IMG/VR virus record: IMGVR_UViG_3300033233_000042
Location: 1 to 61,040 of that record
Direction: 5' to 3' (one strand)
From: a virus
Length of the DNA stretch: 61,040 bases
Positions within the stretch are counted from its first letter, which is position 1, and every line of letters begins with the position of its first letter. The notes under the pieces are model-generated. The model saw only the letters and a program-made list of their open reading frames with translations, ran no database searches and was not told the origin of the DNA. The translations under genes were made by a program, and so were the position numbers. Shown here piece by piece: positions 97 through 50,376 of this stretch.

Positions 97-106
97 GTTA
101 CTTTCC

Positions 107-1720: not shown

Positions 1721-1729
1721 GACACCCTC

Positions 1730-2332: not shown

Positions 2333-2335
2333 GGC

Positions 2336-2848
2336 TTATCCTCCATACCATTTTCTAAACTGCTCTTCTATGTCAAACCCTTGTATTCCAAGTTCGGCCA
2401 TAGATCTATTGATACCCTCTTTCCATTCCTGCCACGACTTCTGTATATTACTAAAGTCGAGGTGAGAGCCAAATCTCCTGGATCCTTCTGTCGCAAGCTT
2501 AAATGTTTGATAAGCCTCCGGAGAACTGACGGTAGAAGCAATCTCTTGCGCAACAGGAGCTGTTCTCTGTTGATATGATTGTATATTCTTCTGCAAAGAA
2601 GACTGGAAGAAATCCCTAAGATTACTATAATCTCCGATTGCTCCCGTGGTTTGTGTTCTCTCTCCGTATGTCAACGCCTTCTGGAAGGCAGGACTTACCT
2701 TTTCACTATACTGCTTCATTAGAGCGCTCATTACCGTAGTATACAGATCAGAAGCAACATTGGGCGATGGACTAGAGGAGGAAATTCTCTGCATGAACTC
2801 CTGATATTCCTTCTGCCACTGTGGTATATGTGGTTTTCTCGCTCCCAT
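2336..2848 (-). CDS. Unknown virion-module protein, 170 aa (copy A)
   Basis: Not recognised. The protein is hydrophilic and probably helical, rich in Ser/Gln/Tyr, and ends FRKWYGG. The start ATG has a very strong AAGGAGGATAAGAA site even though it lies 77 bases inside the end of the upstream 136-residue gene in another frame. The same 77-base overlap is kept in copy B, which supports both reading frames. It lies in the ejection-protein cluster. Confidence 0.75.
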   Translation of the reverse strand: MGARKPHIPQWQKEYQEFMQRISSSSPSPNVASDLYTTVMSALMKQYSEKVSPAFQKALTYGERTQTTGAIGDYSNLRDFFQSSLQKNIQSYQQRTAPVAQEIASTVSSPEAYQTFKLATEGSRRFGSHLDFSNIQKSWQEWKEGINRSMAELGIQGFDIEEQFRKWYGG

Positions 2849-3182
2849 TTCTTATCCTCCTTAAGACCCATTTTCTGGCTTTGCTGTCCCAGTAGAGTAG
2901 ATGAGTAAACATTTCTTTCCCTAACCTAAGAAGGGACAGCACGTCTTTTATATCTTTTATACTTCCCCAGAAATGATATACTAGTCCCACTTCGCCTTCA
3001 AGTCTTAAGTCGTCTAGATAAAAATCCTGCGTTTCAACTATCCTTTTTGCGGTCTCTAGATCTGTTCTGCAGTAGACAACAAGAAAATCCCTATGGGCGA
3101 AGTAGAGACCGTTCTTAAGCATAGCATCAATTAACTCGAAGATTATCTTGTTCTGTTCTAGATGATATAGATACCTTTCCAC
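2772..3182 (-). CDS. Unknown late protein, 136 aa, GTG start (copy A)
   Basis: Not recognised. The GTG start at 3182 is preceded by AGGAGGTTAAAGG, and the same codon and site are used in copy B. The protein is mixed alpha/beta with a basic segment (RKWVLRRI) near residue 105. It overlaps the upstream 207-residue gene by 56 bases and the downstream gene by 77. In position and length it resembles T7 gp13 (138 aa), but I see no sequence signature and do not assign that function. Confidence 0.75.
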   Translation of the reverse strand: MERYLYHLEQNKIIFELIDAMLKNGLYFAHRDFLVVYCRTDLETAKRIVETQDFYLDDLRLEGEVGLVYHFWGSIKDIKDVLSLLRLGKEMFTHLLYWDSKARKWVLRRIRNGSEKTTYTTVAEGISGVHAENFLL

Positions 3183-3750
3183 CCTTTAACCTCCTGAATT
3201 GCTCAGCTAAACAATCATATTGCAATACAAAGAACTTATGGATATCATCGCTAGTTAGAAAAGAACAAGCTCTATAAACCACCAACATTTTATAGACTTC
3301 TGGGATAAGATCATCTTTCTCTTCTTCATCGCTCTCTTTCTCAAATCGCTTAAACCATGGTAAGTAAACAACATCTAGAACGCCTTTGTAGATCCCAGCT
3401 GGAATCAAAATAATTCTGCCACCTTCTAGCCGATATCCACACGGATATATCTCTCTATCAAACAATCCCTTGCGCACTTCCGCTTGTATCCCCGGGGTAT
3501 CCAGCAACTTAACCCTTACGTCAGGAAACTGATAAGACGTAAAATAGACTCTCTTGGGAATACCTACAAAGCCGTCCACACCCCATCCATTTACCACGAA
3601 GGAACAACCATCATACAACTCCATGTCGCTCGCAACCCACAGTCTGGCAGAATTGATTGCTTCCACTAACCTGATTTCATCTATGCCCAGTTCTCGTGGT
3701 TCAATAAATACCCTAATACTTCTCAGATAATCACCAAGCCTAACTGACAT
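3127..3750 (-). CDS. Tail adaptor-like protein, 207 aa (copy A)
   Basis: Seen: the architecture resembles the other adaptor at 6,127-6,747. It has an opening helix (LGDYLRSIRVFIEPRE), an INSARLWVASD helix, a beta-rich middle and a closing helical part with LIPEVYKMLVVYRACSFL. Such short proteins form head-tail or nozzle adaptor rings in podoviruses. The start ATG follows GGAGGAATACA. An acidic run (ESDEEEKDD) lies near residue 145. The adaptor role is inferred from the paired architecture and its place after the nozzle gene. Confidence 0.6.
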   Translation of the reverse strand: MSVRLGDYLRSIRVFIEPRELGIDEIRLVEAINSARLWVASDMELYDGCSFVVNGWGVDGFVGIPKRVYFTSYQFPDVRVKLLDTPGIQAEVRKGLFDREIYPCGYRLEGGRIILIPAGIYKGVLDVVYLPWFKRFEKESDEEEKDDLIPEVYKMLVVYRACSFLTSDDIHKFFVLQYDCLAEQFRRLKGGKVSISSRTEQDNLRVN

Positions 3751-4114
3751 TGTATTCCTCCGATAACTGTTGAAACACTGCGTCTATATCCTGATGCATT
3801 ATATATTCTACCATCTTAAGTTGCTCAAAGGAACCAGCAGGTAAAATCTTTGGTATAAAGATAACAGGAACAGGAAGAGACGCTAGAACAGAATGTAACG
3901 TATCGTTCAAGAACTGATGAAACTGAAGATTGATCTGTATGAACTCTCTCTGATCTCTTACTTCTCTTAATATAAGCTCGAAAGGAAGAATTGTTGGGAC
4001 ATTCAGATTCAGAGAGCGAATGATCGCATTCGTAGTCTCAACAAAGCCAATATGATCTTGCGTAGCATTCTCAATAAATTTAAGCTCATCATCCTCTATC
4101 TTGACCCTAACCAT
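3740..4114 (-). CDS. Unknown tail-module protein, 124 aa (copy A)
   Basis: Not recognised. A helical protein with an acidic N terminus and a Leu/Pro-rich middle. It overlaps the stop of the 675-residue nozzle gene by 19 bases and the start of the following adaptor by 11, so translation is probably coupled; its own ribosome site is weak. It is conserved in B (127 aa with a slightly longer C terminus). Confidence 0.7.
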   Translation of the reverse strand: MVRVKIEDDELKFIENATQDHIGFVETTNAIIRSLNLNVPTILPFELILREVRDQREFIQINLQFHQFLNDTLHSVLASLPVPVIFIPKILPAGSFEQLKMVEYIMHQDIDAVFQQLSEEYNVS

Positions 4115-6123
4115 GCTGGAGTCTGCCCATAGAAGTAGTTGATTTCTCCAAGCAGAGTAAGCTTCATTTTGATAAAGTGAACATACATAAACACATCAGA
4201 ATCCTCCGAGAGCTCTAACCAGAGGTAAACGCCTTTCTTTTGCAGTGCAGGTTTATATCCAACCAGGTCAGTGTAGTATTGGACGAGCCTTTCAAAGACA
4301 TACTCATCATCGAATCCGACCTTTATTGGACAGGCCACATTAGTCTTTATGAGTATCTCTCGTATATATTTGTATCTCTTGATGCCGAGATCAAACGGAC
4401 ATAATCTGACTGTCATCGGATAATACGTAGTCTGACTGAACATCACATGTAATGCCACAGTCCCTGTTTGGCCAGGATATGGATATCCGACTAGAGAGCA
4501 ATTCTCGCCGTTGGGATTTGTGAAACTTCGTATTGCCCGAAAAGGAAGCTGAAACCATACGTCATATTCTATGCAGTAACAGAGCGTAAGGTCATTATAT
4601 CTATACGGAATAGCTAGACAATTCTTATCCTCAAACATAAACGTTCCAGCTTTGAAATGATCTAATAACGGAACCTGATCTGCAACAAGATTATCTATCC
4701 GCTCCAATGTATTCGTCCTGAGCTTGTATATTCCAGTTTTATCCACAAGGAAGATCAGGTCTCGTATCACCATTAGAGTCGAGTTAGAAAACGGCATCAG
4801 AATACCCGTGTCCAGGAGGTAAAAACTGGAAGGAATATTCGATGCCACACTAGCAGAGAGAATGAATAGGTTGCCGTCTGTGAACACATAAAGCATATCG
4901 TTGATGACGTAGAGCCAGCTTATCCAAGAGACCGTTGGATGTGTAATAAGTATATATCCCCCACCCTCGGTAGAAAGAAAAACATCCTTTGGTGGAGTCC
5001 CAGAAGTCCAAGCAAGACCACCGGTGTCAGCAAGCGTGGTAGATGTTGTTTCTACATATTGCCCCTCTCCGCCGCTTGTCGTCCCTCTCCAGACACGATA
5101 TTTAACAGCGCCAGACGGAGCATCCCACGTTAAAACAACTGTCCCGTTCTCTACGAAATTGGCATTCACCCAAGTGAGAGTTCCATTATCTACAAGAGAT
5201 GTTCCTGTGACGTCTACATACTGATTCTCCTGCCCAGCTGATGTTCCTCTCCACACTCTGTATCTAGATACACCTTCGACAGGAGACCAAGAGAGAGTCA
5301 CTGTCTTATTTGTGTTATCGGTCGTAGCAGATACTTCATTTGTAGCTCTATGAACATTATTTGCATCATCTAGGGAAGAGACACGGTAGTAATACGTCCC
5401 TGCCGCAAGATTCCCGCCAGCAGAAGCCAGTATAGTTAAATTTGTAGGGGCGACGTATATCGTAGCCTTAACTTCCACGCTGAGTCCTGTCCACCCACCA
5501 TCGCCGGCACTAGCAGAGATCTTATAATAATAGGTTCCTGTTAAATTGCCTCCAGAGGCATAATTTACCTTGGGATTTTGGGGAACCGTAGTATTGGTAG
5601 CAAAGTTTGTCTTGCTTACATCCTGAAAATCTACCGAGGAAAAGTAGAGCGTTTTACCATTGGCCACAAAGAGGCGACCTCGATAGACGCAAGCTCTATC
5701 ACCATTTGCAGTGTTGTATGTTGAAAGAAGAGTTCCATCTCGTTTAAATCTATAAATCTTGCTATTGGTAGTAACAAAAAAGAGCAGGTCATCATATCCA
5801 CCTGCCCACTGAACATCCTCATCTACCGTCACCTTAATAGACGTCTTGTTAACTGTATCTACAACCTCGCAGGACTTACCGAGCCAGAGATAAGCATACC
5901 TTCCATCGTTGTTGAACCCATTCAGAGCACCAAAAGAAGAAGTGAAGAAGGCGGTGCTCTTAGGAACTTTCTTCCACCCGAGCTTGAGGTCTGGCATGGC
6001 CGTGAGTTTCTGGCACATCCCAGGTTTGGTTGTGGCATCTCCAACATTAGTTGCCAATCCCAGGATGTGGAAGTCTTGTTCAACATTTTGAACAATCTCG
6101 CTCTGCTTCCTTCGCTTAGCCAT
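4096..6123 (-). CDS. Tail nozzle/tubular protein with fibronectin-III-like repeats, 675 aa (copy A)
   Basis: Seen: a beta-rich protein in three parts. A propeller-like N-terminal region (about 1-190) is followed by two or three repeats around residues 195-375 with YYYRVSSLD and SRYRVWRGT patterns typical of fibronectin type III-like strands, then a beta-rich C terminus. Size and position right after an adaptor match T7 gp12 (tail tubular protein B). The repeats diverge most between copies A and B while both flanks are highly conserved. Nozzle assignment is by family pattern and order; no enzyme motif was seen. Confidence 0.75.
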   Translation of the reverse strand: MAKRRKQSEIVQNVEQDFHILGLATNVGDATTKPGMCQKLTAMPDLKLGWKKVPKSTAFFTSSFGALNGFNNDGRYAYLWLGKSCEVVDTVNKTSIKVTVDEDVQWAGGYDDLLFFVTTNSKIYRFKRDGTLLSTYNTANGDRACVYRGRLFVANGKTLYFSSVDFQDVSKTNFATNTTVPQNPKVNYASGGNLTGTYYYKISASAGDGGWTGLSVEVKATIYVAPTNLTILASAGGNLAAGTYYYRVSSLDDANNVHRATNEVSATTDNTNKTVTLSWSPVEGVSRYRVWRGTSAGQENQYVDVTGTSLVDNGTLTWVNANFVENGTVVLTWDAPSGAVKYRVWRGTTSGGEGQYVETTSTTLADTGGLAWTSGTPPKDVFLSTEGGGYILITHPTVSWISWLYVINDMLYVFTDGNLFILSASVASNIPSSFYLLDTGILMPFSNSTLMVIRDLIFLVDKTGIYKLRTNTLERIDNLVADQVPLLDHFKAGTFMFEDKNCLAIPYRYNDLTLCYCIEYDVWFQLPFRAIRSFTNPNGENCSLVGYPYPGQTGTVALHVMFSQTTYYPMTVRLCPFDLGIKRYKYIREILIKTNVACPIKVGFDDEYVFERLVQYYTDLVGYKPALQKKGVYLWLELSEDSDVFMYVHFIKMKLTLLGEINYFYGQTPAWLGSR

Positions 6124-6126
6124 GTC

Positions 6127-6747
6127 CTAGCCTCTCGCTCGAACACTTCTGAAAAGCTCCATCTTCCACTGGTTATTAAAGAACTCTGCCAGAGTGAACT
6201 GCATATCATTCATAGCAAGCATATAAGCCATACGGAGAGCAACACAATCTAACAACTCGTCTGGGATAAGATCCTCCTGATCATAGAGATTATACATTTG
6301 ACTGACCAAAGGCGTATAGAGTATGTCGATATACTCATTCTCTTGGTGATTCCAGGTAGACGGAACAATAGATACTGTCTTCTCGACTTGATCGTATATA
6401 TACCCAATCGGTTCTACATCCTTTATAACATCGTCATAAGTAACCTGATCTAGCTTCTTAACATAGTTCCTATCCGGATTCACATAATACACACGCCACA
6501 CCCTAGAGATATTAGTAAGAGGGGCGTTACCAAGAATATACCAGGTGGTATAGAGATTCCATGTAGGACGGTCAAACCACCTAGCATATTTGTTAACGGA
6601 AGAATGCGTGCTCTTCTTGAGGCAAAAATTATCCGCTACATCCTGTCTGGCTTTATTGAGGATTCTATACAAAAGAGGTGATTCATCGTAGGCGACAGGA
6701 TAAAAATCAAACAGCCTACGGAAATAATCAGCCGCCGTTAGGCTCAT
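6127..6747 (-). CDS. Tail adaptor (T7 gp11-like), 206 aa (copy A)
   Basis: Seen: an N-terminal helix YFRRLFDFYP, LLYRILNKARQDVADNF, a beta middle containing DRPTWNLYTTWY, and C-terminal helices with LIPDELLDCVALRMAYML. This is the usual layout of phage adaptor/gatekeeper proteins. The ATGA overlap with the upstream gene implies translational coupling. The motif W-x-DRPxWxxYTTW(W/Y) also occurs in the unrelated protein at 15,063-15,665. Confidence 0.75.
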   Translation of the reverse strand: MSLTAADYFRRLFDFYPVAYDESPLLYRILNKARQDVADNFCLKKSTHSSVNKYARWFDRPTWNLYTTWYILGNAPLTNISRVWRVYYVNPDRNYVKKLDQVTYDDVIKDVEPIGYIYDQVEKTVSIVPSTWNHQENEYIDILYTPLVSQMYNLYDQEDLIPDELLDCVALRMAYMLAMNDMQFTLAEFFNNQWKMELFRSVRARG

Positions 6748-7061
6748 GCCTTCCTAGTCCGTCTCTCTATTACCTTTCCTGTCTCAAACTGCAAACCCTT
6801 TAAGTAATCAATAGTCACAATATTGACTTTATCTGCATCTGGATCGTCCTTAAGCTCTTTCATTACAGCAGGCTCAAACTTCAAGAACTCGAGCCTCTTT
6901 CTGCATACGTCGTAATGATGATCGTCGGTAGCCCCATAGCCCAGGAACTCCACACAGAGAGCATCTGGGACTACCGTGTCTGCATTTGGGTCTAATTCGT
7001 ATATCTTCCCATCCGTTCTATCAAAGAGGATGAGCCTCCTGTCCTGATTCTTAACTATCAT
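6744..7061 (-). CDS. Unknown head-tail region protein, 105 aa (copy A)
   Basis: Not recognised. A short mixed-charge protein with an RRLILFDRTDGK opening and a basic end (ERRTRKA). I chose ATG 7061, because GAGGAG lies seven bases upstream of it; a TTG two codons earlier would be too close. It lies between capsid and adaptor genes, so a head-completion role is possible but unproven. Confidence 0.75.
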   Translation of the reverse strand: MIVKNQDRRLILFDRTDGKIYELDPNADTVVPDALCVEFLGYGATDDHHYDVCRKRLEFLKFEPAVMKELKDDPDADKVNIVTIDYLKGLQFETGKVIERRTRKA

Positions 7062-7076
7062 GCCCAATCTCCTCTG

Positions 7077-8141
7077 TTAGAGGTTCATGCTAGGAACACC
7101 CTTAATCACCAAATGCGCCTTTGGACGCTCAGACCACAACTGACCACCAATCAAGAACACGCTCAGCCAAGAGAGTTTAGCATTGATATACTCTGGTTGC
7201 CATTCGGTCGTGTAGAAGCTGAACGGGCTAGCAAAAGTGAAGTGGATATTGTTCAGATTAAGATAAATGATATCGCCAACATAGTTACCGCCACCAGCAT
7301 CGTATGGGCTAAGATAAGGATCCGGAAAGACCGGGACACCACCAACAATAACACCCTTCACGGTATGCTCTCTTACCTCGGTAATCTCTGCTACATGCCC
7401 GACATTGTATCTCTCAAGCGGAGTAAAGGACTCGATAATCTTTTGGAATGTAGCATAGTCAGTAAATCCACAAGAAGGCAAACCGAATATGTTCCCAACA
7501 TTTTTCATGTATTTGTTCACGCCTCTCTCAATACCCTGGTAGACGTTGGAAGCGTTGCCAAGATCGGTAGCATATGAATATTGAGTCCCAACCCACCAGG
7601 TATAAGTTGTCCTGTCTAGCTCACCAAATACACCAGAAATTCCAACCACATCGAGAATACCGTAAAACTCTTTGTCGTTTGTTCTGGATCTAATAAGATC
7701 GTTCGTAAGCTTTGCAAAGGTCTGAAGTCCGATATCGCTTACCTTAATTGCTAACTCATTTACAACCTTGTTTGGAGAGTCCGCTTGGGCAATCTCGAAC
7801 TCGTTCAATCTGATGGTATTGCCCATCACAGCAGGTTCAAAGATGGCATTTATTGTTTCTGCATTGAAATCGTTGATCGTAAAGTTACCGCTGGTATCGA
7901 GATACTGTGGGCTAGGAGAGCTGAGGTCAGGATAGACCGGCTGAACAATAAAAGCAGCCTGGAACGGTCTCTGATCCGCTCTCTCAAGGATAAGTCTCAC
8001 CATCGGTGAGATCTTAGGAAGATTCTGTGCCACTGCATAGGCAATAAAGTTTCTCCTAGTTGTGTCTAAGAAGCGTTTAAGCTGTGAAGAGTCTTGAAAA
8101 ACTCCACCGGTTAAGAACGGAATATTTACTGTCGTTGCCAT
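7077..8141 (-). CDS. Major capsid protein, 354 aa (copy A)
   Basis: Seen: the gene follows a scaffold-like gene and precedes head-tail genes, and its length and beta-rich composition suit an HK97-fold capsid subunit. N-terminal residues about 10-40 are helical, and the C terminus has aromatic strands (EYINAKLSWLSVF). It is the best-conserved structural protein between copies, with about 12 substitutions, mostly I/V, D/E or N/S. The ribosome site is GGGAGGTAATAGAGAG. Identity as capsid is inferred from order, size and conservation. Confidence 0.85.
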   Translation of the reverse strand: MATTVNIPFLTGGVFQDSSQLKRFLDTTRRNFIAYAVAQNLPKISPMVRLILERADQRPFQAAFIVQPVYPDLSSPSPQYLDTSGNFTINDFNAETINAIFEPAVMGNTIRLNEFEIAQADSPNKVVNELAIKVSDIGLQTFAKLTNDLIRSRTNDKEFYGILDVVGISGVFGELDRTTYTWWVGTQYSYATDLGNASNVYQGIERGVNKYMKNVGNIFGLPSCGFTDYATFQKIIESFTPLERYNVGHVAEITEVREHTVKGVIVGGVPVFPDPYLSPYDAGGGNYVGDIIYLNLNNIHFTFASPFSFYTTEWQPEYINAKLSWLSVFLIGGQLWSERPKAHLVIKGVPSMNL

Positions 8142-8150
8142 CTCTCTCTA

Positions 8151-8639
8151 TTACCTCCCTAACATTGATAATACATCTTCCATGAGCTTGTCCTTCCCAT
8201 CAATGCCAGAGTATCTCTTTATTACATCATCATCTTGTCTAGCACGAATGGGAAGGCTATTTCTCGATTTTTGAAGTCTTTCGCTCACATACAAACGAAC
8301 AGCCGTCTCGAAATTGATGATTCCGTTCTGCTTAGCAAAATCCAGAACATCTTGGAAATCGTCTCTAGAGAGACCATAACTCTCGAGAACCTTGATAAAC
8401 TGTTCTTCCTTTCGAGCCTTCTCCTGTTCCTCCAATTTCCTTTTTAGATTATCAATCTCTCCATCATACTGTTCCTTTATTCGCTTGACCTCTTTTTCAT
8501 ACGGAGGTTCAGGTAAGCTTATACCGAACTTATCCAGGAGGGTCTTCAAATGCGGACGAAGATCGGGATCCTCGTAGGCGCTCCTGATAAACTCCTGTAT
8601 CTCCCGCAATTGCTGTTCTGGAGCTTTCGTATCTTCCAT
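8151..8639 (-). CDS. Scaffolding protein, 162 aa (copy A)
   Basis: Seen: a highly charged helical protein with a long Lys/Glu coiled-coil segment at about residues 50-85 and a C-terminal helix ending EDVLSMLGR. It lies directly upstream of the capsid gene and downstream of the portal cluster. Short, charged coiled-coil proteins in this slot are scaffolds in podoviruses. The start follows GTAGGAGTAGGTT. The B copy has the same length. Confidence 0.8.
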   Translation of the reverse strand: MEDTKAPEQQLREIQEFIRSAYEDPDLRPHLKTLLDKFGISLPEPPYEKEVKRIKEQYDGEIDNLKRKLEEQEKARKEEQFIKVLESYGLSRDDFQDVLDFAKQNGIINFETAVRLYVSERLQKSRNSLPIRARQDDDVIKRYSGIDGKDKLMEDVLSMLGR

Positions 8640-8648
8640 AACCTACTC

Positions 8649-8819
8649 CTACTTGCTTTGAGCAACAGGTTTGTCTATCTTAATGTTCTTCCTATACTTA
8701 CTAAACAGCCCATCATTGGGCTCGCTATTTCGGGGATTATATCCCCAGTAATCACCCGTTACATACCCGCTGTATTTTCCTGGGTTAATTTTCTGAGTCC
8801 CTTTGCCTTTAGTAGCCAT
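8649..8819 (-). CDS. Small conserved protein, 56 aa (copy A)
   Basis: A short gene starting at ATG 8819 after AGGAGGATAAC and ending at TAG 8649. The product starts MATKGKGTQKINPGKYSGYV and is basic, Gly/Tyr/Asn-rich and probably unstructured. The B copy (49,702-49,872) has the same length and almost the same residues, so the gene is real. Function unknown; it lies between a Pro-rich protein and the scaffold. Confidence 0.8.
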   Translation of the reverse strand: MATKGKGTQKINPGKYSGYVTGDYWGYNPRNSEPNDGLFSKYRKNIKIDKPVAQSK

Positions 8820-8829
8820 GTTATCCTCC

Positions 8830-9165
8830 TTACATTCCTATTGGCGTTGCACCAGCACCAGGCGGTGGAGTCGGTGTTGGCGTAGACCCTCCAGGTGGGA
8901 TTCCACCCGCCCCAGGAGGCATGCCAGCCTGGGCACCTTGCACAGCCTGTGCCGCCTTTGCTAATTTCTGATCCGCATCCGGCACTACCTTACTGAGTTT
9001 CTTAAGACAATCTAGGCAGACCTGCCCTTTCTCGGAGGTAGAAGAATAGATGCCGAGAGCCTCTTCTAACCCTTTGATGCACATAGCCACCACTATGTCG
9101 GCATATTCTTCCATCCCGATTGGGCCTCCAGTTGCTCCCATCTGTGGTGCCATTTCTCCATTCAT
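8830..9165 (-). CDS. Unknown head-module protein with Pro/Gly-rich tail, 111 aa (copy A)
   Basis: Seen: an N-terminal helical part (about 1-75) with Cys residues in a CLDCLKK stretch, then a Pro/Gly/Thr-rich tail (about 76-111). The tail differs in sequence and length from copy B while the helical part is nearly unchanged. The start ATG follows AGGAGGATGAT. Not recognised; its place upstream of the scaffold suggests a head-assembly or decoration role. Confidence 0.75.
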   Translation of the reverse strand: MNGEMAPQMGATGGPIGMEEYADIVVAMCIKGLEEALGIYSSTSEKGQVCLDCLKKLSKVVPDADQKLAKAAQAVQGAQAGMPPGAGGIPPGGSTPTPTPPPGAGATPIGM

Positions 9166-9180
9166 ATCATCCTCCTATTC

Positions 9181-9312
9181 TGGGGGAGAGAACTAACTAC
9201 TAGACGTATATGTGCTCGCTACTTGCGAGCTTTGCGTCGTGCTTTACGTCTAGTCCTTCTGGCCATCTACTATTCCTCCTTATCTCAACCATATAGTTAG
9301 TTCTCTCCCCCA
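9181..9312 (-). promoter_or_regulatory. Nested stem-loop enclosing a micro-ORF (copy A)
   Basis: Seen: a perfect 19-bp inverted repeat (9,181-9,199 with 9,294-9,312). Inside it is a second stem, 9,199-9,208 with 9,245-9,254, and a third, GCTCGC-TACTT-GCGAGC at 9,214-9,230. The 15-codon ORF and its ribosome site lie inside. Copy B keeps the outer and innermost stems but builds the middle stem from different sequence. It sits between the fibre cassette and the head cassette, suggesting an RNA control or processing element. Confidence 0.75.
9219..9266 (-). CDS. Arginine-rich micropeptide, 15 aa (copy A)
   Basis: ATG 9266 follows an excellent AAGGAGGAATAGTAG site and reads MARRTRRKARRKARK to TAG at 9219. 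The product would be almost entirely Arg/Lys, able to bind nucleic acid. Copy B has an equal-length ORF with one Lys/Arg exchange and silent changes, and the same type of ribosome site. Coding is supported by this conservation but not proven; it could equally be a leader peptide whose translation opens the surrounding stem-loop. Confidence 0.6.
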   Translation of the reverse strand: MARRTRRKARRKARK

Positions 9313-9340
9313 TACTCATAAATGCATATCATTCACAGAA

Positions 9341-9346
9341 AGTCAA
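9341..9346 (-). promoter_or_regulatory. Possible internal promoter -35 (TTGACT) ahead of the stem-loop (copy A)
   Basis: On the minus strand TTGACTTTCTGT is followed by an AT-rich stretch before the nested stem-loop. The same block occurs at 50,371-50,376 in copy B although the genes just upstream are unrelated there. No good -10 is seen at 16-18 bp, so the promoter call is weak. The conserved block may instead mark a recombination junction. Confidence 0.3.
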
Positions 9347-9354
9347 CACTTTAT

Positions 9355-10845
9355 TTAACTAACCCCGCCAATTTTCTGAATAATCTTCCCAACTGTATCA
9401 TTAAGCTCCTGAATACCCCGAGTCAGCAATGCGATCAGATCCATATAATTCAGACTTGCCTTGCCTTCCGTATCAATCGTCACAAGCTCAGGACAGACCT
9501 CAGATACATCCTGAGCAATAAAGCCAAATCGGTTGGCTTTTAATGGATCATCCACATACACGTATTTTACTGGTTTTAGACAGGAGATAACGTCCAGACA
9601 ATCAGTTTGAAGATAGTCTGATAAGGGCTGGACATCCGTTTTCAGATTTGCATCTGAGCGCTGAGTCAGTGTATCATAGTAGATACCAGAACAGGTAATA
9701 TTATAAGTGCCGAGACCGCCATACCAGCCAGAAGGAAAATCATTCTTGCTAATACCATGCACAGGATCCGGAACAATCATTGTCAGCTGACCCTCTGCAG
9801 TGCTGGTTGAGTAGGGGAATATAGCAACATACTTTCGGCCTCCACCAGTAGTTTGCAATATAAAAATATTATTGTTATCTTGTTCTAGATAGAAGCCGCC
9901 AACCCAGGTTCCATTAACAAAATAATCTAAACCAGTCATCGCATATGATGTAGTAGATACAGTATTAATTTTCAATCTCGGTTGGCTTGCACCAGTTCCA
10001 CTGAAAGTGATATTCCCACTTGTATCTACCACTACCCTATCTGTGTTATTAGTCCTGATGCTTAGGTTGTAATTGTCCACAGTTCCAATAAAAGCACTCG
10101 CTCCTGCCTGAATCCCAATGTTCCCGTTCACATGTAACTTGTATGACGGGGTCACTCCGATACCAACATTCCCATTTGTATCAATTATCACCCTATCTGT
10201 GTTATTAGTTCTTAGACTTAGTATATAGTTGTCTAGCGTCCCGATAAATGCATTCGCTCCTGCCTGAATCCCGATATTCCCGCCTACATGTAGTTTTTGA
10301 GCCGGGGAAGTAATACCAACACCGACATTACCAGATACAACATAGATCGGCGCGGCGCTAAGCTTAACATTCGCCGTATCAAACTGAACAAGCTGTCCTG
10401 TCACAGCATTAGTAGAATCCAGATGATAACCATCCAGATAATCCGCACAAAGGTTTGTTACCAAATTACTGCTGTTAACAACAAAGGGAGGGCTGGAGGT
10501 AACCTGAGAAACAAACTGTTGGGCTGTGATATTCCCTGAGCAGGTTGTATTCTGATCAGATCTCAGAAATTGACTAGGAAGGATCCCACCCAGCTTATCA
10601 GCATTTACAGCATTAGCAACCTTAATATCTGTCCAAGAGGAAGACTGAGCTATCTTTAGCGTAGTCCCATCGAACCAGAACTGGCCGTCATATGATATCG
10701 TAGGAGCAGTCGACCCGACGGTCACCACATTGCAGAGATAACTAAAATTTGCGTCCAGCATGCTAACGGGGAAACACTTAACCCCGTTTATTACCTGATA
10801 CTGATTATTGTTTATTACCTGCTGAAAGTTATATGGGACTTGCAT
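9355..10845 (-). CDS. Tail fibre with C-terminal S74 chaperone domain, 496 aa (copy A)
   Basis: Seen: an N-terminal beta-rich attachment part (about 1-130) and repeats with NVGIGVTPSYKLHVNG patterns near residues 170-280. The C-terminal intramolecular chaperone of the S74 family has SDANLKTDVQPL near residue 400, a GFIAQDV motif, and a final helix. S74 domains help trimerise fibres and are then self-cleaved. The first 130 residues match the 196-residue B protein; the rest is absent in B and replaced by other genes. This is a receptor-binding candidate. Confidence 0.85.
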   Translation of the reverse strand: MQVPYNFQQVINNNQYQVINGVKCFPVSMLDANFSYLCNVVTVGSTAPTISYDGQFWFDGTTLKIAQSSSWTDIKVANAVNADKLGGILPSQFLRSDQNTTCSGNITAQQFVSQVTSSPPFVVNSSNLVTNLCADYLDGYHLDSTNAVTGQLVQFDTANVKLSAAPIYVVSGNVGVGITSPAQKLHVGGNIGIQAGANAFIGTLDNYILSLRTNNTDRVIIDTNGNVGIGVTPSYKLHVNGNIGIQAGASAFIGTVDNYNLSIRTNNTDRVVVDTSGNITFSGTGASQPRLKINTVSTTSYAMTGLDYFVNGTWVGGFYLEQDNNNIFILQTTGGGRKYVAIFPYSTSTAEGQLTMIVPDPVHGISKNDFPSGWYGGLGTYNITCSGIYYDTLTQRSDANLKTDVQPLSDYLQTDCLDVISCLKPVKYVYVDDPLKANRFGFIAQDVSEVCPELVTIDTEGKASLNYMDLIALLTRGIQELNDTVGKIIQKIGGVS

Positions 10846-10851
10846 CCCTCA

Positions 10852-11151
10852 TTATACCCCCTCTAGAAAGTCTACAAGCCTTCCAAACGGTATTGTCGGT
10901 AAAAATGTCGCCTTCTTCTTAATCAAGCTTATCTCTTCCGAGGTTAAATCAATTACATCATCTTCACTCATAATCTTCTTCAACAACGTCCAGCACTTCA
11001 TCTTCTGCTCAATGTCCTGGGAATCATCTCTAGCAAGAGAAGCCAGGATGGCATTCCGGTAGGTTATCTCAGTATTGTCACCAGCAAAAACCATCGGTTC
11101 ACCATTCAACCCTAACATGACTTTGTCCAGATCTTCTTTCTTAAACCTCAT
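10852..11151 (-). CDS. Unknown protein between endolysin and fibre, 99 aa (copy A)
   Basis: Not recognised. A small helical protein beginning MRFKKEDLDKVMLGLNGEP. It lies immediately before a fibre gene and after the endolysin, with AGGAGGGATAAG as ribosome site. Copy B is same length and very similar even though the fibre after it differs. It may be a fibre-attachment or assembly accessory; this is a guess from position. Confidence 0.7.
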   Translation of the reverse strand: MRFKKEDLDKVMLGLNGEPMVFAGDNTEITYRNAILASLARDDSQDIEQKMKCWTLLKKIMSEDDVIDLTSEEISLIKKKATFLPTIPFGRLVDFLEGV

Positions 11152-11152
11152 C

Positions 11153-11572
11153 TTATCCCTCCTCTGTTAGAAATACGTGGTTACCAATTTCTGCCGCCAC
11201 CCTTAACTTATTCGCCCAAGAAGGACGCTTATTAGAGTAATACAAACTCTTGGTCATATAGTATCTAGCACCATCTATCTCATCTAAAAGAACCCTACCA
11301 TTCAAAACATTATCCGCTATTCTGTAAAAGATAGATGGAATATCTCTTTCCCCTCTCAACGCAGCTTGCAGGATAGAATAGTTAGGATCGTTCTTATTCC
11401 AGCAGGAGAACTGATAAGGTCGCAAGCACTCAGTAGCAGGATAAGTATTATTAGCCAGAGCACGATTACGAATAACCTGTGCCACAGCAATCTGGCCTTC
11501 GTGAGGTTCGCCTCTAGCTTCCCCAAATACCGTCAATCCTGTAATTTTAATATCAATTGGTCTTATCACCAT
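11153..11572 (-). CDS. Cell wall hydrolase, SleB-like endolysin, 139 aa (copy A)
   Basis: Seen: FGEARGEPHEGQIAVAQVIR at about residues 16-35 carries the catalytic-type Glu18 and the conserved motif of the SleB/CwlJ hydrolase family. NTYPATECLRPYQFSCWN lies near residues 42-59. The protein is a single domain without signal peptide. It follows two membrane or helical proteins, forming a lysis cassette, and would cleave peptidoglycan at the end of infection. The start overlaps the previous gene by 20 bases. Confidence 0.88.
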   Translation of the reverse strand: MVIRPIDIKITGLTVFGEARGEPHEGQIAVAQVIRNRALANNTYPATECLRPYQFSCWNKNDPNYSILQAALRGERDIPSIFYRIADNVLNGRVLLDEIDGARYYMTKSLYYSNKRPSWANKLRVAAEIGNHVFLTEEG

Positions 11573-11852
11573 AAGCCTTCACCTTCTGCAATGCCATTTC
11601 TACTGCTAAATTAAGGACAGAGAGCCCAACATCTATTCCAATGCTCTTAGCAGCATCCCCGAGTTGCTTAACAGCTTCTGTTCTCTTCTGTTCAGAAGTG
11701 AGGGTGTTATTCTGCATAAGCTTTGTGACAATATCTACCGCTACAGGAAGAAGTTTTTCTAGATAGTCAACAATACCCCGCTCAAACAACGAGAGAATGA
11801 ACCTTTCTAGCCAGGTAAGCTTAGCTAAAATCAACTGCTTAATGTTATTCAT
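11553..11852 (-). CDS. Holin-associated helical protein (LLH-like), 99 aa (copy A)
   Basis: Seen: an amphipathic N-terminal helix, a moderately hydrophobic segment at about 28-45, and C-terminal helices ending in a Lys-rich tail. The pattern resembles the LLH-type holin superfamily, which is usually placed beside an endolysin. It lies between a membrane holin candidate and the SleB gene. Assignment is tentative and rests on context. Confidence 0.5.
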   Translation of the reverse strand: MNNIKQLILAKLTWLERFILSLFERGIVDYLEKLLPVAVDIVTKLMQNNTLTSEQKRTEAVKQLGDAAKSIGIDVGLSVLNLAVEMALQKVKAYGDKTN

Positions 11853-12090
11853 TCTGCCTTCCTCCTATCGGCCTCTTGGTTGTTAACCTCAGCACCAAAT
11901 TAACCATAGCAAACAACCCAAGCCCTATTGTTTGTATATCCTGCTGAGACGTAACGCCTCCCGTCTTATAGTCCACAACAGCAGCAATAAGAGCGGCTAT
12001 GTTGAACCATACGGTCTTACTATAATACCAGCTCTTATTATTGCCAATCTCGTGCCCAATGTCAAAAATCTCTTTAATTATTCGCCACAT
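11845..12090 (-). CDS. Holin candidate, 81 aa (copy A)
   Basis: Seen: two hydrophobic segments, about residues 25-42 (VWFNIAALIAAVV) and 52-68, with charged ends. SKTVWFN and LRLTTKRPI flank them, a pattern common in small phage holins. I chose ATG 12090, ten bases after AGGAG; an upstream TTG would sit on the ribosome site. It starts inside the end of the fibre gene. It would form the membrane pore that releases the endolysin. Confidence 0.65.
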   Translation of the reverse strand: MWRIIKEIFDIGHEIGNNKSWYYSKTVWFNIAALIAAVVDYKTGGVTSQQDIQTIGLGLFAMVNLVLRLTTKRPIGGRQNE

Positions 12091-14683
12091 GTTCAGCAAG
12101 CTCCTTTACCGCCTTAAATAACAATGCCAACATATCAAGAATGTTTATCGAACACATCCCATTACCACTTACAGTAACCCCATTCGGGAATACATCTTTA
12201 ACATAATTGGCTACAAACCCAACATGCTCCTCCTTACTCCCTTTTAGTAAATATCTATAGACGTCTATACTTTTAACTATAGCAAGAGCAGAGTCAGAGA
12301 ACAGAACAACATTCTCCTTCATTGACAGATCGGATCCTTGATTTATCGTCCCATTCACATAAATATTCGCATTTACAATCAGATGATCATATAGATACAC
12401 TGTTCTATTATCCCCATACATAATATCTGCTCTACCGGCAATTACAAAATGACCCGTCGAGTTCTGGATCCCAACCAAGCTATTGTCATCAGCTGGACTT
12501 CCCCAGGAAATAAACGTCCCATTACCAGACATAGGCATAAGGATCGCAGATTGGCTGAATCCGGAAGAATTCCTCAAGTTGAGTCCATAATCTTGATTAG
12601 CATCTGCGTTGATATCAATTTTCTTAACACCAATCGTGCTGGGAAGCTGAACATTCCCACTTATCGTTCCACTTACACTCAGATTACCACTTACATAAGC
12701 ATTCCCGGTCATAATTGTATCATCATATATATACACAGTCTTTCTGCTCCCATAAGCAGAATCAGGTCTGCCAAAAATTACAAAATGCCCGGTAGAAGCT
12801 TGGACACCAATAAGAGAGTCACTGTCTGGAGTGCTACCCCAAGTAATCTGAGATCCAGTCCCACTTGTTGGCATAAGGATAGCTCCTTGGGAGAATCCAT
12901 TAGATCCTCTGAAACTAAGCCCATAATCTTGCCCTGCATCTGCATTAATATTGATTTTTTTACAAGTTATTATAGTCGGAGGCTGATAAGTGACATTACC
13001 AGTGATATTGCCAGTAACCTTAAGATCACCATTGATCTGAACATAATCGCTCATATATATTACCCTAGTGCCGCCAGCACTGGTAGGCCTCCCAATTATC
13101 CAAAACTGGCCGGAACTGTTAACACCTATCAGAGAATCAGCACCCCATGAGGTATTCACAGGAGTCCATGCTACAGTGCTACCATAACCCCCCACAGGCA
13201 TCCATATTGCAGTCTGCGAAAAACTACCACTAAGTTTTATCCCATAATCTTGATTAGCATCTGCGTTGATATCAATTTTCTTAACACCAATCGTGCTGGG
13301 AAGCTGAACATTCCCACTTATCGTTCCACTTACACTCAGATTACCGGATATATAAGCATTTCCGGTCATAATCGTATCGTCATACAGATATACAGTCCTC
13401 CTGCCCCCATAAGCAGCATCAGCTCTGCCAGAAATTACAAAATGACCCGTCGAGTTTTGAATCCCTATAAGGCTATTATCATAGGCTGGGTCGCCCCAAG
13501 AGATAAACGTTCCCTTCCCGGACATGGGCATAAGAATTGCAGCTTGATTGAATCCGGAAGACCCTCTTAAGTTAAGTCCATAATCCTGAGCAACCGATGT
13601 ATTCAACGCAAAGCCAACAGAAGTGGTATAACCATGAACAATCAAATTCTCATAGACATGAGTATCTCTCGATACACCGTTGGACTTACCAGCTATGATA
13701 AATTGACCAAGAGAAGAGGAGATACCAATCAAGCAATCATACGGGTTGGTATTTCCCCAGTTTATGAACGATCCGTTACCACCTGTCGGCATCAGAATGG
13801 CAGATTGAGAAAATCCATTAGATCCTCTGAAACTTATTCCATAATCCTGATTAGCGTCTGCATTGATATCGACCTTCTTAACACTAATCGTGCTAGGCAC
13901 TTGATAAACTACATTACCAGTAATTGTCCCTGTCACACTCAAGTTACCATTTATAGTCACATCGTCCCACATTCCAATCTGGCGCCTATTACCCTTTGTA
14001 GGATCAGGCTTGCCAGCAATTACTAAAGTATTACCCTGAGATAATGACACACCAATCAAAGTATTATCATACGGAGGGTCGCCCCATGAGATGAAGTTGC
14101 CCTTGACCCCACCAGTCGGCATAAGAATATAAGCACCAGAGCAATCGACAGCGCCGCTCCTAAGGTCTATCAAACTATTTTGGTTGGTCTGCGGAGCTAG
14201 TCTTATGGAGATCGGGATCAGTTGACCACCGACATTGACATCATCATATAAGTTGATTACCCTTCTTCCGCTACTGTTGTAACGACCAATAATTTTAAAG
14301 TTACCAGATGTATCTACCCCTATTACAGATTCCCCAGCACCCCAACCTCCAGATGTAGGCTGCCACTGAATAGCCGAACCAGGAACACCAACCGGCATCT
14401 TAATAGCAGCCTGGTAAAATCCGGACGCATTGGGAGATAGATCTATACCAAAATTGACCCTGTTGGGATTAGAGACCGTAACAGAGTTTACAGTGATATC
14501 TCCAGATACAGATCCGCCTCCGCCACCCGGGATGTAGCTAGACTTTATCCTCCCAGAAAGAGGCGTGCCATTCTCAAACACATCAGACAACGCCTGGAAA
14601 TTTTCATTAGCCTTCTGCAGATCGTCCCTGACCTGTGTGGGGCTTGTCCCATCATAATTGAACGGCGTGCTATACCAACCCAT
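12074..14683 (-). CDS. Multi-module tail fibre with S74 chaperone end, 869 aa (copy A)
   Basis: Seen: an N-terminal attachment part (about 1-65), then about seven similar modules of 95-115 residues. Each runs DYGLNLRGSSGF...AILMP...WG...LIGI...FVI.GR...VYLYDD, then a Gly/Ser linker. The C-terminal S74 chaperone (about 775-869) has SDLSMKENV and VGFVANYV. A 104-base stretch is repeated exactly at 12,585-12,688 and 13,242-13,345. Copy B has only four modules with another consensus. Module number and type vary as expected for receptor-binding proteins under selection. Confidence 0.85.
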   Translation of the reverse strand: MGWYSTPFNYDGTSPTQVRDDLQKANENFQALSDVFENGTPLSGRIKSSYIPGGGGGSVSGDITVNSVTVSNPNRVNFGIDLSPNASGFYQAAIKMPVGVPGSAIQWQPTSGGWGAGESVIGVDTSGNFKIIGRYNSSGRRVINLYDDVNVGGQLIPISIRLAPQTNQNSLIDLRSGAVDCSGAYILMPTGGVKGNFISWGDPPYDNTLIGVSLSQGNTLVIAGKPDPTKGNRRQIGMWDDVTINGNLSVTGTITGNVVYQVPSTISVKKVDINADANQDYGISFRGSNGFSQSAILMPTGGNGSFINWGNTNPYDCLIGISSSLGQFIIAGKSNGVSRDTHVYENLIVHGYTTSVGFALNTSVAQDYGLNLRGSSGFNQAAILMPMSGKGTFISWGDPAYDNSLIGIQNSTGHFVISGRADAAYGGRRTVYLYDDTIMTGNAYISGNLSVSGTISGNVQLPSTIGVKKIDINADANQDYGIKLSGSFSQTAIWMPVGGYGSTVAWTPVNTSWGADSLIGVNSSGQFWIIGRPTSAGGTRVIYMSDYVQINGDLKVTGNITGNVTYQPPTIITCKKININADAGQDYGLSFRGSNGFSQGAILMPTSGTGSQITWGSTPDSDSLIGVQASTGHFVIFGRPDSAYGSRKTVYIYDDTIMTGNAYVSGNLSVSGTISGNVQLPSTIGVKKIDINADANQDYGLNLRNSSGFSQSAILMPMSGNGTFISWGSPADDNSLVGIQNSTGHFVIAGRADIMYGDNRTVYLYDHLIVNANIYVNGTINQGSDLSMKENVVLFSDSALAIVKSIDVYRYLLKGSKEEHVGFVANYVKDVFPNGVTVSGNGMCSINILDMLALLFKAVKELAEHVANN
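12585..12688. repeat. 104-bp exact direct repeat inside fibre gene, first copy
   Basis: This stretch is identical, by eye, to 13,242-13,345, while the sequence on either side differs by scattered changes. It covers the start of a fibre module and the linker before it. An exact match this long inside older, diverged modules suggests recent gene conversion or unequal exchange. Confidence 0.8.
13242..13345. repeat. 104-bp exact direct repeat inside fibre gene, second copy
   Basis: Partner of 12,585-12,688 in the same reading frame, 657 bases (219 codons, two modules) away. Recombination between the two would delete or add two modules without breaking the frame. Confidence 0.8.
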
Positions 14684-14695
14684 ATCTCATGCCTC

Positions 14696-15061
14696 CTAAC
14701 TCTGTTTCTTTACCTTCAAAACTAACCCTCCAGCATTTATCACAAACGTTACACCTGTAATTATACTAAGAGAAGAGTCTAAAGTAAAGGTATAGAGCTT
14801 GTTGCCAGAGCTATCGAAGAAATAAATCTCATTTATACTCCCCCAATCCCCAGTTGCGTTAGGAAAGGAAATCTGAGAAGAGTTCTTGTAGTAATAGTAA
14901 GATGCATCCTCCGAGTCAAACACAAACAACCCAGAGGAGACATTCACCCTAGCATAACCATTACCAACCTTCTCCGTTCCGTTGTATCCTAACCCAACAG
15001 AAGCAATGTTGTTCATATTACCTATAATCTCATCAGACACTGTCTTTGTTAAAACTAACAT
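14696..15061 (-). CDS. Unknown appendage protein, 121 aa (copy A)
   Basis: Not recognised. A beta-rich small protein with Tyr/Ser-rich strands (SYYYYKNSS near residue 55) and a C-terminal LVLKVKK. It lies between two fibre or appendage genes with an AGGAGGATAGG site. The B copy is the same length but moderately diverged. It may be an adaptor or head decoration for fibres (inference from position). Confidence 0.7.
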   Translation of the reverse strand: MLVLTKTVSDEIIGNMNNIASVGLGYNGTEKVGNGYARVNVSSGLFVFDSEDASYYYYKNSSQISFPNATGDWGSINEIYFFDSSGNKLYTFTLDSSLSIITGVTFVINAGGLVLKVKKQS

Positions 15062-15062
15062 C

Positions 15063-15665
15063 CTATCCTCCTATGCAGTAATAAACATTATTGTTCGTAT
15101 CACAAAAAGCCACGTCAGAAAAAGTAAGTAAAGGATGAGATAAAGACAATTCATAAACGTCAGTTCCAGAACACAACCCATAAGTATTTTGATTGCTGTC
15201 GCAGAACATGCCTAACTCGCAGGCGTCTATCTCATAACTAGCTATCTCACCGGATATATCCATACCATAATTAGTCGGATTATCATAAACAAAAGCAAAC
15301 CCAAGAGCAAGGCCACCAAGCGTAGAAACTCCACTAACATTACTAAGAGAGATGTTGCCACCGAGAAACTCACATCCCACGGTAATATTGCCAGCCGGAA
15401 TATTGGTTATAAATGATACTCCCGTTACAGACCCAGAGAGAATAAACACATTCCTTCTAGACACATTGTTTGGATCCGGTATCCATAAGAGCAGATACCA
15501 AAGGAAGGGATGATCTATATTGAATCCAGCTATAACAGACACTTCTATCCACCAAGTGGTGTATTGCGTCCAAACAGGACGGTCTGTCCACTTGCCCCTT
15601 CTGATTGTATACCCTAAAGGAGATTCAATGCCTTCGTAATTTCTAGATTGCCAATCGCCTATCAC
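15063..15665 (-). CDS. Appendage protein with repeated FCDS motif, 200 aa, GTG start (copy A)
   Basis: Seen: the N-terminal 75 residues carry KWTDRPVWTQYTTWW, a motif shared with the tail adaptor at 6,127-6,747, so this end may dock on the tail. The C-terminal part has repeats of the form FCDSNQNTYGLCSGTD. The GTG start overlaps the stop of the upstream gene (GTGA). Copy B is twice as long (400 aa) through extra beta-rich segments. A tail-appendage role is inferred. Confidence 0.65.
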   Translation of the reverse strand: MIGDWQSRNYEGIESPLGYTIRRGKWTDRPVWTQYTTWWIEVSVIAGFNIDHPFLWYLLLWIPDPNNVSRRNVFILSGSVTGVSFITNIPAGNITVGCEFLGGNISLSNVSGVSTLGGLALGFAFVYDNPTNYGMDISGEIASYEIDACELGMFCDSNQNTYGLCSGTDVYELSLSHPLLTFSDVAFCDTNNNVYYCIGG

Positions 15666-16483
15666 ATTCCTAACCTCTGCTTAATCTCGTCTATCTCTGC
15701 TAATATGTCCCTGCCAGATACAAACAATCGATCATATATATCTACTCTTCGGTAGTCCGGAGTAATGTATCTTCCCACAATGGCAAACTTCCCATCATCA
15801 GAAGGACTAGTGGAATTAGTGAGCACACCTACGAAAGACTCCTTCCCATAGCCGCCGTGCTCAGTCGGTGTCCATTGAATAATAGACGACATCTGAACAC
15901 CAGGAGCAGGAAGAACAATCGCTCCCTTAGAACAACCTGCACCATTCCCAGTGTTGAACCAAGACATGTCTATACACGCTTCTACATTGGAATGAATGAG
16001 CTTCTGAGAGAAGTAAATACCTGTCATATGGAAATCCGAAAGGTCTATCCCATCCTGCCAGTAGCCCATAACATGTATAGCACAAGAGCAGGGCTTGGCC
16101 GCTTCGTTCGTAGCTGTGCAAAGATGTAAGCCGCAAATAAATGGATCCGGAATCTCTGTTCTCGCAGGCTTAACACCAGCCCTAGTTGTATTAGCATCCA
16201 GCTCCAGAGCTATGCATACCTTGCCGCCGGCATCAGATGTAACTACAAAATTTGCACCCCAAATATACTGCCTGCCGTTGTGATCGTCTATGTCCGAAAA
16301 GATGTTTACTATATTGTCCTTAACTGGATTGGGTATGTTCGGATTATCAGATGTGCGAACAAATACACCTACTGCCTGCCCTACGTCTATAGTGTTAATA
16401 TTGCTATAGACTACAATAGGATTCCCACCCAAAGAAGCACCTCCATTACTTCCCTTTCTCTTGCTCTTTGGCTTCTTGAACAA
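15662..16483 (-). CDS. Fibre-module protein following the portal, 273 aa, TTG start (copy A)
   Basis: Seen: a Lys/Arg-rich N terminus, then a beta-rich body. Its final 90 residues repeat the module of the 869-residue fibre (GAIVLP...IIQWTP...FVGV...FAIVGR...RRVDIYDR), followed by a short coiled-coil end. The TTG start at 16483 has GGGAGG six bases upstream, conserved in B, and lies 38 bases inside the portal gene. Function unknown beyond the shared module. Confidence 0.7.
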   Translation of the reverse strand: MFKKPKSKRKGSNGGASLGGNPIVVYSNINTIDVGQAVGVFVRTSDNPNIPNPVKDNIVNIFSDIDDHNGRQYIWGANFVVTSDAGGKVCIALELDANTTRAGVKPARTEIPDPFICGLHLCTATNEAAKPCSCAIHVMGYWQDGIDLSDFHMTGIYFSQKLIHSNVEACIDMSWFNTGNGAGCSKGAIVLPAPGVQMSSIIQWTPTEHGGYGKESFVGVLTNSTSPSDDGKFAIVGRYITPDYRRVDIYDRLFVSGRDILAEIDEIKQRLGM

Positions 16484-17921: not shown

Positions 17922-18175
17922 AGCTCGCCTTTCTTAATGCCAGATTTGCCAAAGGCTTCATACTTGAGAGGGTTCGACTTAAACACATCCGCTATGCCAG
18001 AGAAGTCCTCCATATGCGCTTCCTTGCCAAGAAGAGAACGAGCTTCTGACATGTCTATATAGCCAGGAGAGGAAAGTAGCCTCTGATTCTGCTTGGCCTG
18101 ATACCGACCTTCCTCGCACTGCTCTAACAATCTTTCCTGCAAAGGAGAACGCTTGCCTTTTACAATAATATACAT
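17918..18175 (-). CDS. First late gene, unknown 85-aa protein (copy A)
   Basis: Not recognised. I chose ATG 18175, five bases after AGGAGG; the in-frame GTG two codons earlier overlaps the ribosome site. The product begins MYIIVKGKRS and is polar and helical. It overlaps the portal start by four bases. It is the first gene transcribed leftward from the NC1 hub and is kept in copy B. Confidence 0.75.
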   Translation of the reverse strand: MYIIVKGKRSPLQERLLEQCEEGRYQAKQNQRLLSSPGYIDMSEARSLLGKEAHMEDFSGIADVFKSNPLKYEAFGKSGIKKGEL

Positions 18176-18896: not shown

Positions 18897-18899
18897 ATT

Positions 18900-50216: not shown

Positions 50217-50342
50217 TGGGGGAGAGAACTAACCATCAGAAGGATTGCTCGCTACTTGCGAGCCTTGCGTCGTGCTCTACGTCTAGTCCTTCTGGCCATC
50301 CTCTTATCTCCTTTCTAATTATACAGTTAGTTCTCTCCCCCA
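50217..50342 (-). promoter_or_regulatory. Nested stem-loop enclosing a micro-ORF (copy B)
   Basis: Perfect 17-bp outer stem (50,217-50,233 with 50,326-50,342). The middle stem CAGAAGGATT (50,237-50,246) pairs with 50,285-50,294 with one G-T pair. The innermost GCTCGC-TACTT-GCGAGC is at 50,247-50,263. The middle stem uses different left-arm sequence from copy A yet forms the same shape. Confidence 0.75.
50252..50299 (-). CDS. Arginine-rich micropeptide, 15 aa (copy B)
   Basis: ATG 50299 after AAAGGAGATAAGAGG reads MARRTRRRARRKARK. Compared with copy A there is one Lys/Arg exchange and one silent change in 15 codons. The flanking bases differ much more, which supports selection on the peptide. 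Confidence 0.6.
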   Translation of the reverse strand: MARRTRRRARRKARK

Positions 50343-50370
50343 TATCTATAAACGCATATTATTTACAGAA

Positions 50371-50376
50371 AGTCAA
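50371..50376 (-). promoter_or_regulatory. Possible internal promoter -35 (TTGACT), copy B
   Basis: Same TTGACTTTCTGT block as at 9,341-9,346, here following an unrelated gene. Weak as a promoter because no clear -10 is present. Confidence 0.3.

Follow-up and report, generated by a model that had tools for sequence, protein, structure and literature searches.

What does selection maintain in the gap between the tail-fibre-like gene and the first head-cluster gene of a phage genome, where nested stem-loops surround a very short, arginine-rich ORF, and what might such an element do? The question arises at positions 9181–9312 of IMG/VR record IMGVR_UViG_3300033233_000042, the whole 61,040-base sequence of which is the window analysed here. 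A preliminary description made from the sequence of the window had placed the element at these coordinates, which are correct; it reads as RNA on the minus strand (9312 to 9181), flanked by the fibre-like gene (9355–10845) and the gene that opens the head cluster (8830–9165).

Positions 1–19455 and 41052–61040 of the window are two diverged versions of one region, approximately 41 kb apart and roughly 70–98% identical by segment. One relative fills a single record of 40,754 bases. The window thus most plausibly contains roughly one and a half genomes from two related 41-kb phages, one after the other; assembly has probably joined two variants, a true tandem genome being the less likely alternative. 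On this reading, its two copies of the element (A and B) are better regarded as natural variants than as a duplication inside one phage. Fibre-like genes at 12074–14683 and 53616–55346 contain internal repeats of approximately 200–240 nt (families D1, D2 and D14) that differ between the genome copies. The features of the window used below are these.

7077..8141, minus: major capsid protein (PHROG 9953, E=7e-6; approximately 23% identical to the annotated capsids of MW202753 and MW202825)
8151..8639, minus: probable scaffold gene, 162 aa (by position only)
8830..9165, minus: the head operon's first large ORF, 111 aa, with a C-terminus rich in Pro/Gly; its Shine–Dalgarno sequence (SD) is directly 3′ of the helix
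9181..9199, minus: outer helix 3′ arm, copy A; ends approximately 20 nt before the next start codon
9199..9208, minus: middle stem 3′ side (folding)
9214..9230, minus: inner hairpin GCTCGC-AAGTA-GCGAGC over the stop codon (folding)
9219..9266, minus: micro-ORF MARRTRRKARRKARK, 15 codons plus TAG; intact in 4/4 close sequences
9245..9254, minus: middle stem 5′ side, inside the ORF; pairs with 9208–9199
9275..9280, minus: SD of the micro-ORF, AGGAGG (sequence); predicted 96% unpaired in copy A at 37 °C
9294..9312, minus: outer helix 5′ arm, copy A; perfect 19-bp inverted repeat with 9181–9199
9318..9346, minus: predicted promoter, copy A, TTGACT (9346–9341), 17-nt spacer, ATTTAT (9323–9318) (sequence and comparison with relatives)
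50217..50233, minus: outer helix 3′ arm, copy B; pairs with 50342–50326
50252..50299, minus: micro-ORF of copy B, MARRTRRRARRKARK (sequence)
50326..50342, minus: outer helix 5′ arm, copy B; 17 bp with 50233–50217
50348..50376, minus: predicted promoter, copy B, TTGACT-17-GTTTAT (sequence)

The 111-aa ORF is weakly similar to the equivalent genes of the relative L106 and of MW202753, and a family search with the 162-aa ORF gave no match. Bacterial genomes searched with the window capsid protein alone likewise gave no matches; searched with a capsid alignment, they returned mostly binned contigs of the distant group described below.

A long helix around a basic micro-ORF

The preliminary description had claimed a perfect 19-bp outer stem enclosing a ribosome site and a 15-codon Arg-rich ORF. 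Both are present: 9312–9294 pairs with 9199–9181, with a 17-bp counterpart in copy B, and the SD AGGAGG (9280–9275) precedes MARRTRRKARRKARK (9266–9219), 10 of whose 15 residues are Arg or Lys. The helices of copies A and B are the longest and second-longest perfect inverted repeats within 300 nt in the 61-kb window; a scan for such repeats of at least 13 bp found none besides these two, and first-order Markov control sequences gave a mean of 0.2 per window, the longest being 14 bp. The arm sequence of copy A occurs nowhere else in the record. Folding z-scores against shuffled sequences were −9.1 for A, −8.3 for B and −7.5 for L012. The observation is real and stronger than claimed.

L012 and L013, both close to the window phage, have the element too. 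A peptide-pattern search alone led to L106 (capsid 46% identical to that of the window) and L107, which show gene order matching the window, L107 sharing a contig with L126; profile searches with the capsid then brought in L125, L126 and L127 and later L250, L251 and L252, and a final peptide-pattern scan returned only the L251 and L252 contigs. The resulting window-type set comprises 11 elements, copies A and B and nine related ones, all 11 of which have an intact basic ORF of 15–25 codons, an upstream promoter-like sequence and an enclosing helix. The ORFs encode MARRTRRKARRKARK (three elements), MARRTRRRARRKARK, MARRTRRKKRTTKRTKRAKRS, MARRKRRAKKRGSRKKKR, MARRKRRKKRTSRKKKR, MARRKRRTKKRTSRKKKR, MARRKRKKTRKAGRKAGRRKKRTTA, MARRKKRTVRKKARK and MARRKKRATRKKSRK; the micro-gene is thus a previously unannotated one for a strongly basic peptide of 15–25 residues.

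Comparison of the outer helices revealed arm sequences that are unrelated or strongly changed among lineages (GGGGGAGAGAACTAACTA, AGAAGGGCGCTGAGT, AGGGGCACTGAGTATG, AAGAGAGGCTGCTGAAATT, TAGTGGGGAGGCATCTGAT and TGGTGGGGAGGCGTTT). Nevertheless, the first 13 pairs from the helix base are paired in 143 of 143 cases across the 11 elements, against 53% when arms were mixed between lineages. Without correction for phylogeny, the 192 outer-helix pairs of the 11 elements comprise 181 Watson–Crick, 10 G-U and one other pair, and no A-C pair on the transcript strand. A DNA-level inverted repeat, read on the transcript strand, would yield A-C as often as G-U, so this bias argues for an RNA structure under selection. 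Two-sided changes occur at stem pairs within the clade II alignment alone, and at one stem pair among the four closest sequences, which are too few for a formal test; most helices, taken singly, beat nearly all shuffles of their own flanks. The duplex is 15–19 bp long with arms a variable 88–167 nt apart, and in eight loci its predicted mean probability is 0.84–1.00 at 37 °C and 0.80–0.99 at 65 °C.

The outer helix is therefore conserved as structure on the transcript strand and not as sequence across the wider group. Because helix and peptide are both kept while the helix sequence is repeatedly replaced, structure and peptide themselves are under selection. The ratio pN/pS was 0.10 in clade I (four close sequences) and 0.31–0.41 in the distant group, as pairwise sums that are non-independent and uncorrected for phylogeny, and indicates purifying selection on the micro-peptides. 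The earlier claim that structure and peptide are conserved while the rest varies thus holds up (in 11 of 11 elements the ORF is free of frameshifts and the outer stem is paired), with the amendment that the helix persists as structure rather than as sequence in the wider group and that conservation of the peptide extends beyond the helix.

Within the element, the outer helix alone is general. The inner hairpin is identical in the four clade I sequences, so covariation cannot test it, and clade II has other inner stems or none. The middle stem, 10 bp with the ORF in copy A, is not uniformly conserved: it pairs with the ORF in A and L013, whereas in B and L012 the equivalent CCUUCU segment can pair either with the ORF (CAGAAGGA) or with the micro-ORF's own SD, and the two pairings compete in the predicted ensemble. 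Rebuilding of the middle stem from different sequence, as proposed for copy B, is found in L013 and is ambiguous in B and L012. Across eight loci the predicted unpaired fraction of the micro-ORF SD varies from 0.31 to 0.96.

At the gathering threshold, neither the window element nor the tested loci of the two groups matched any Rfam 15 family, permissive Rfam searches gave only sub-threshold matches to unrelated families, and we found no description of these peptides or helices in the open-access literature. Downstream-peptide RNA (RF01704, PMC2864571) likewise places a structured RNA upstream of a short conserved ORF, but its architecture differs from that of the window element.

Position of the helix on the predicted head-operon transcript

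In copy A, the G-run of the outer stem begins 35 nt after the first base of TTGACT. A consensus promoter scan did not list this putative promoter of the window, whose −10 box is poor, so the call rests on comparison: a TTGAC[AT] box begins 35–38 nt before the 5′ arm in eight loci, in L251 and L252 a TTGAAA-16-TATACT/TATAAT sequence stops 5 nt short of the arm, and in L250, which has TTGACA-17-TATAAT, the arm lies 49 nt beyond the first base of TTGACA. The predicted start coincides with the 5′ arm in most loci, and in L250 the arm lies approximately 14 nt downstream of it. At the other end, the 3′ arm stops 15–23 nt before the next gene's start codon in 11 of 11 elements. Taken together, the promoter spacing and the 3′-arm position predict that the helix reaches from approximately the start of the transcript to a point immediately ahead of the first head gene's ribosome site; the SD of that gene is predicted to be mostly free in eight loci, L125 excepted. 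No terminator-like site was found between 9165 and 9355, and no boxA-like site in 9181–9346 with up to one mismatch.

Related peptides and a pseudoknot in a distant group

The Manatee Spring phages MW202753 and MW202825, with capsids approximately 25% identical to that of the window in the alignment, have a matching gene order. Between portal and scaffold they contain two tandem unannotated 13-codon ORFs with SDs, for example MRKAYKKTRKTRR and MARAKRKGRKARK; the MW202753 record has hypothetical CDSs on the opposite strand over this site. The features concerned are these.

L014:3407-3448 and 3527-3568; L015:3457-3498 and 3576-3617: tandem basic micro-ORFs, 13 codons each, unannotated in GenBank
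L014:3452-3526; L015:3501-3575; L104:5954-5880 (minus); approximately 55 further loci: H-type pseudoknot

Basic micro-ORFs of the distant group have 12–14 codons and occupy the equivalent place, and the gene after the peptide is weakly but recognizably similar between the two groups. At least one basic micro-ORF is present in 64 of the 66 distant IMG/VR loci that hold the interval, 50 of which pass a strict filter for both; L121 lacks a peptide gene, and L120 carries a less basic ORF of 20 residues. Searching for a DNA pattern of MARKxRKxRKxR downstream of an SD yielded 78 loci for checking, all 78 exactly 13 codons long and adjoining related portal/capsid genes. L104, another relative, encodes MARRHRRKRR at this position. 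Such genes fall below usual gene-calling length limits and are unannotated in the deposited relatives, which suggests that head gene clusters hold conserved micro-proteins overlooked by standard pipelines.

No long helix encloses these ORFs, the longest stem being 7.6 bp versus 7.1 bp in shuffles; helix and peptide are therefore separable, and the peptide, kept where the helix is absent, would have a role beyond the window-type helix. Instead, the second micro-ORF is preceded by an H-type pseudoknot with stem NGGG/CCCN and loop T(A/G)TGGCTxyz, in which GGCTxyz pairs with a downstream NNNNGCC-like heptamer (GGCTGAC/GTTGGCC, GGCTGCT/AGTGGCC, GGCTGCC/GGTGGCC and GGCTGAT/ATTGGCC). In 27 sequences 94.5% of cells pair, against 37–66% in slid controls, with 35 two-sided changes versus 10.5 in shuffles, and the loop sequence lies upstream of 77 of the 78 pattern-found loci. 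The pseudoknot, which had no Rfam match, is unreported; none was seen in window-type leaders.

A hairpin that starts at the stop codon of the second peptide has at least six pairs in 37 of 45 unique regions, versus 44% of shuffles; its resemblance to the window's inner hairpin over the stop codon is suggestive only. A promoter downstream of the second peptide is visible by eye in some distant loci, and since 10 of 59 pass the pattern we do not claim it.

What the leader may do

Our preferred reading, to which we assign a probability of roughly 0.45, is that the element is a 5′-end-sealing leader of the late head-operon transcript, carrying the gene for a nucleic-acid-binding micro-protein. Given sequence evidence for a helix conserved as structure on the transcript strand, at a fixed place, for the micro-ORF and for selection on related peptides, we infer the transcription start, mRNA protection and peptide role as follows. 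Transcription would begin on the outer stem's 5′ arm or within a few bases of it; the first 15–19 nt would then pair with the segment just upstream of the first head gene's ribosome site, sealing the 5′ end and looping out the micro-gene, which would be translated separately. No micro-ORF codon takes part in the outer helix, which would therefore survive translation of the micro-ORF.

The helix would most likely shield an abundant late mRNA from decay starting at the 5′ end, and would present the head gene's ribosome site directly behind a rigid stem. Protection of the late message is favoured because the 5′ end would be sealed, the next SD is predicted to be mostly exposed and the helix lies where base pairing, at the mRNA 5′ terminus, is known to slow decay in E. 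coli (titles cited in PMC3997798). The 5′-terminal stabilizing stem-loops of ompA and papA offer a likeness in having a base-paired 5′ end on an abundant message, as predicted near the start here; unlike them, the window helix is long-range (88–167-nt loop) and loops out a translated-looking micro-gene. A helix of repeatedly replaced sequence enclosing a micro-gene at the very start of a head operon would be a sharply defined, testable leader architecture in tailed phages.

On the same preferred reading, a micro-gene placed first would yield its peptide in large amounts alongside the head proteins. The composition and place of the 15–25-residue Arg/Lys-rich peptide favour nucleic-acid binding, most likely in head assembly or DNA packaging. 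A protamine-like viral DNA-binding peptide is suggested by composition (10/15 Arg or Lys) and head-operon location: phiX174 J and adenovirus mu are likewise short Arg/Lys-rich peptides from a structural gene region, whereas those described here have only 12–25 residues, and are encoded as such beside tailed-phage portal/capsid genes.

A serious rival, unlikely in our estimate, is a processing helix between the fibre and head messages: RNase III would cut the 15–19-bp duplex, split the micro-gene fragment from the head message and give the latter a defined 5′ end. The element is a long, almost perfect duplex that stays paired as its sequence changes, as expected of processing stems such as T7 intercistronic RNase III sites and pre-rRNA leader–trailer helices, and the distance from helix to next gene is fixed. 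The window helix differs from these examples in starting near a promoter and enclosing a small ORF; promoter-like sequence just outside it would leave little upstream message to separate, and classical RNase III sites are usually somewhat longer than 15–19 bp.

Equally to be weighed, and doubtful, is autoregulation, in which the Arg-rich peptide would bind structured RNA in its own leader and adjust the expression of its own gene or of the head genes. Peptides of such a size, when basic, can bind structured RNA. In both groups the peptide gene has a structured RNA beside it, in different designs (helix versus pseudoknot), and in B and L012 a downstream segment is able to pair with the micro-ORF SD; the earlier suggestion of an RNA that binds its own peptide also gains a little from the pseudoknot beside the equivalent peptide gene in distant relatives. 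However, the two groups have no RNA sequence or structure in common for one peptide family to recognize, the SD pairing is absent in A and L013, and the peptide is also kept where the window-type helix is absent. Lambda and P22 N peptides with boxB likewise combine an Arg-rich peptide, with an early N-terminal 'MARRxRRK' look, and structured RNA; in contrast to them, the window 15-mer has no room for a polymerase-contact region, no boxA-like sequence accompanies it and the helix is not a boxB hairpin. T4 gene 32 and ribosomal protein S15 are known cases of pseudoknot autoregulation (PMC3014915); there, structured RNA (the gene 32 leader pseudoknot, the S15 operator) adjoins the gene of a nucleic-acid-binding protein, as it would here if the peptide binds nucleic acid, but the window element is a simple long helix and the pseudoknot belongs to the distant group only. 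Improbable in our view is a minimal ribonucleoprotein switch, in which a 12–25-residue peptide would bind the leader helix (or the distant pseudoknot) and couple head-gene expression or packaging to its own level; if true, few known gene-encoded autoregulatory RNA-binding proteins would be as small.

A DNA-level inverted repeat serving as a protein-binding site, an origin or mobile-element ends is very improbable: the repeat is perfect and present in both copies, but its 10 G-U and zero A-C pairs, the variable spacing of its arms, their absence elsewhere in the record and the fixed gene position in all relatives argue against it. We give still less credence to a leader-peptide attenuator sensing Arg/Lys supply. 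An Arg/Lys codon run does lie inside a structured leader, whose middle and inner stems would open depending on where the ribosome stands, yet the element has no terminator-like site, the outer helix is independent of ribosome position, and the peptide sequence, not Arg codons only, is conserved and occurs without a window-type leader in the distant group. The peptide-controlled switch of the preliminary description is weakened by the first two of these points and by the uneven conservation of the middle stem; the interpretation offered there is partly supported. Chance structure with a chance ORF is negligible, being refuted already by the 11 elements and further by the inverted-repeat control, the shuffles, pN/pS and the 78/78 pattern loci.

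Several search hits were set aside. The 16-mer GGGGGAGAGAACTAAC also matches L008, L009 and L011, without helix or ORF there, and these matches were attributed to chance; most other matches of the first peptide pattern (L105, L108, L109, L111 and L113–L117) were Arg-rich or chance ORFs for which relatedness of context was not established. Phages of Myxococcus (Mx8/Mx9), Stenotrophomonas (BUCT555), Microcystis (Mwe-JY13), TM7 and Bradyrhizobium have distantly similar capsids and, in the stretches examined, no comparable SD-preceded basic ORF. Two other basic ORFs came to light: a 24-residue repetitive one with a strong SD near fibre/tail-like genes (L110:2513-2587, MARSSRSKRSKRSKRSSRKSKKRK) and a 56-residue protamine-like one in another viral contig (L116:12455-12625, MARRKRRKERRSRKTAKRVKRISRAIRRRRKRRKRRTKRKRRK...).
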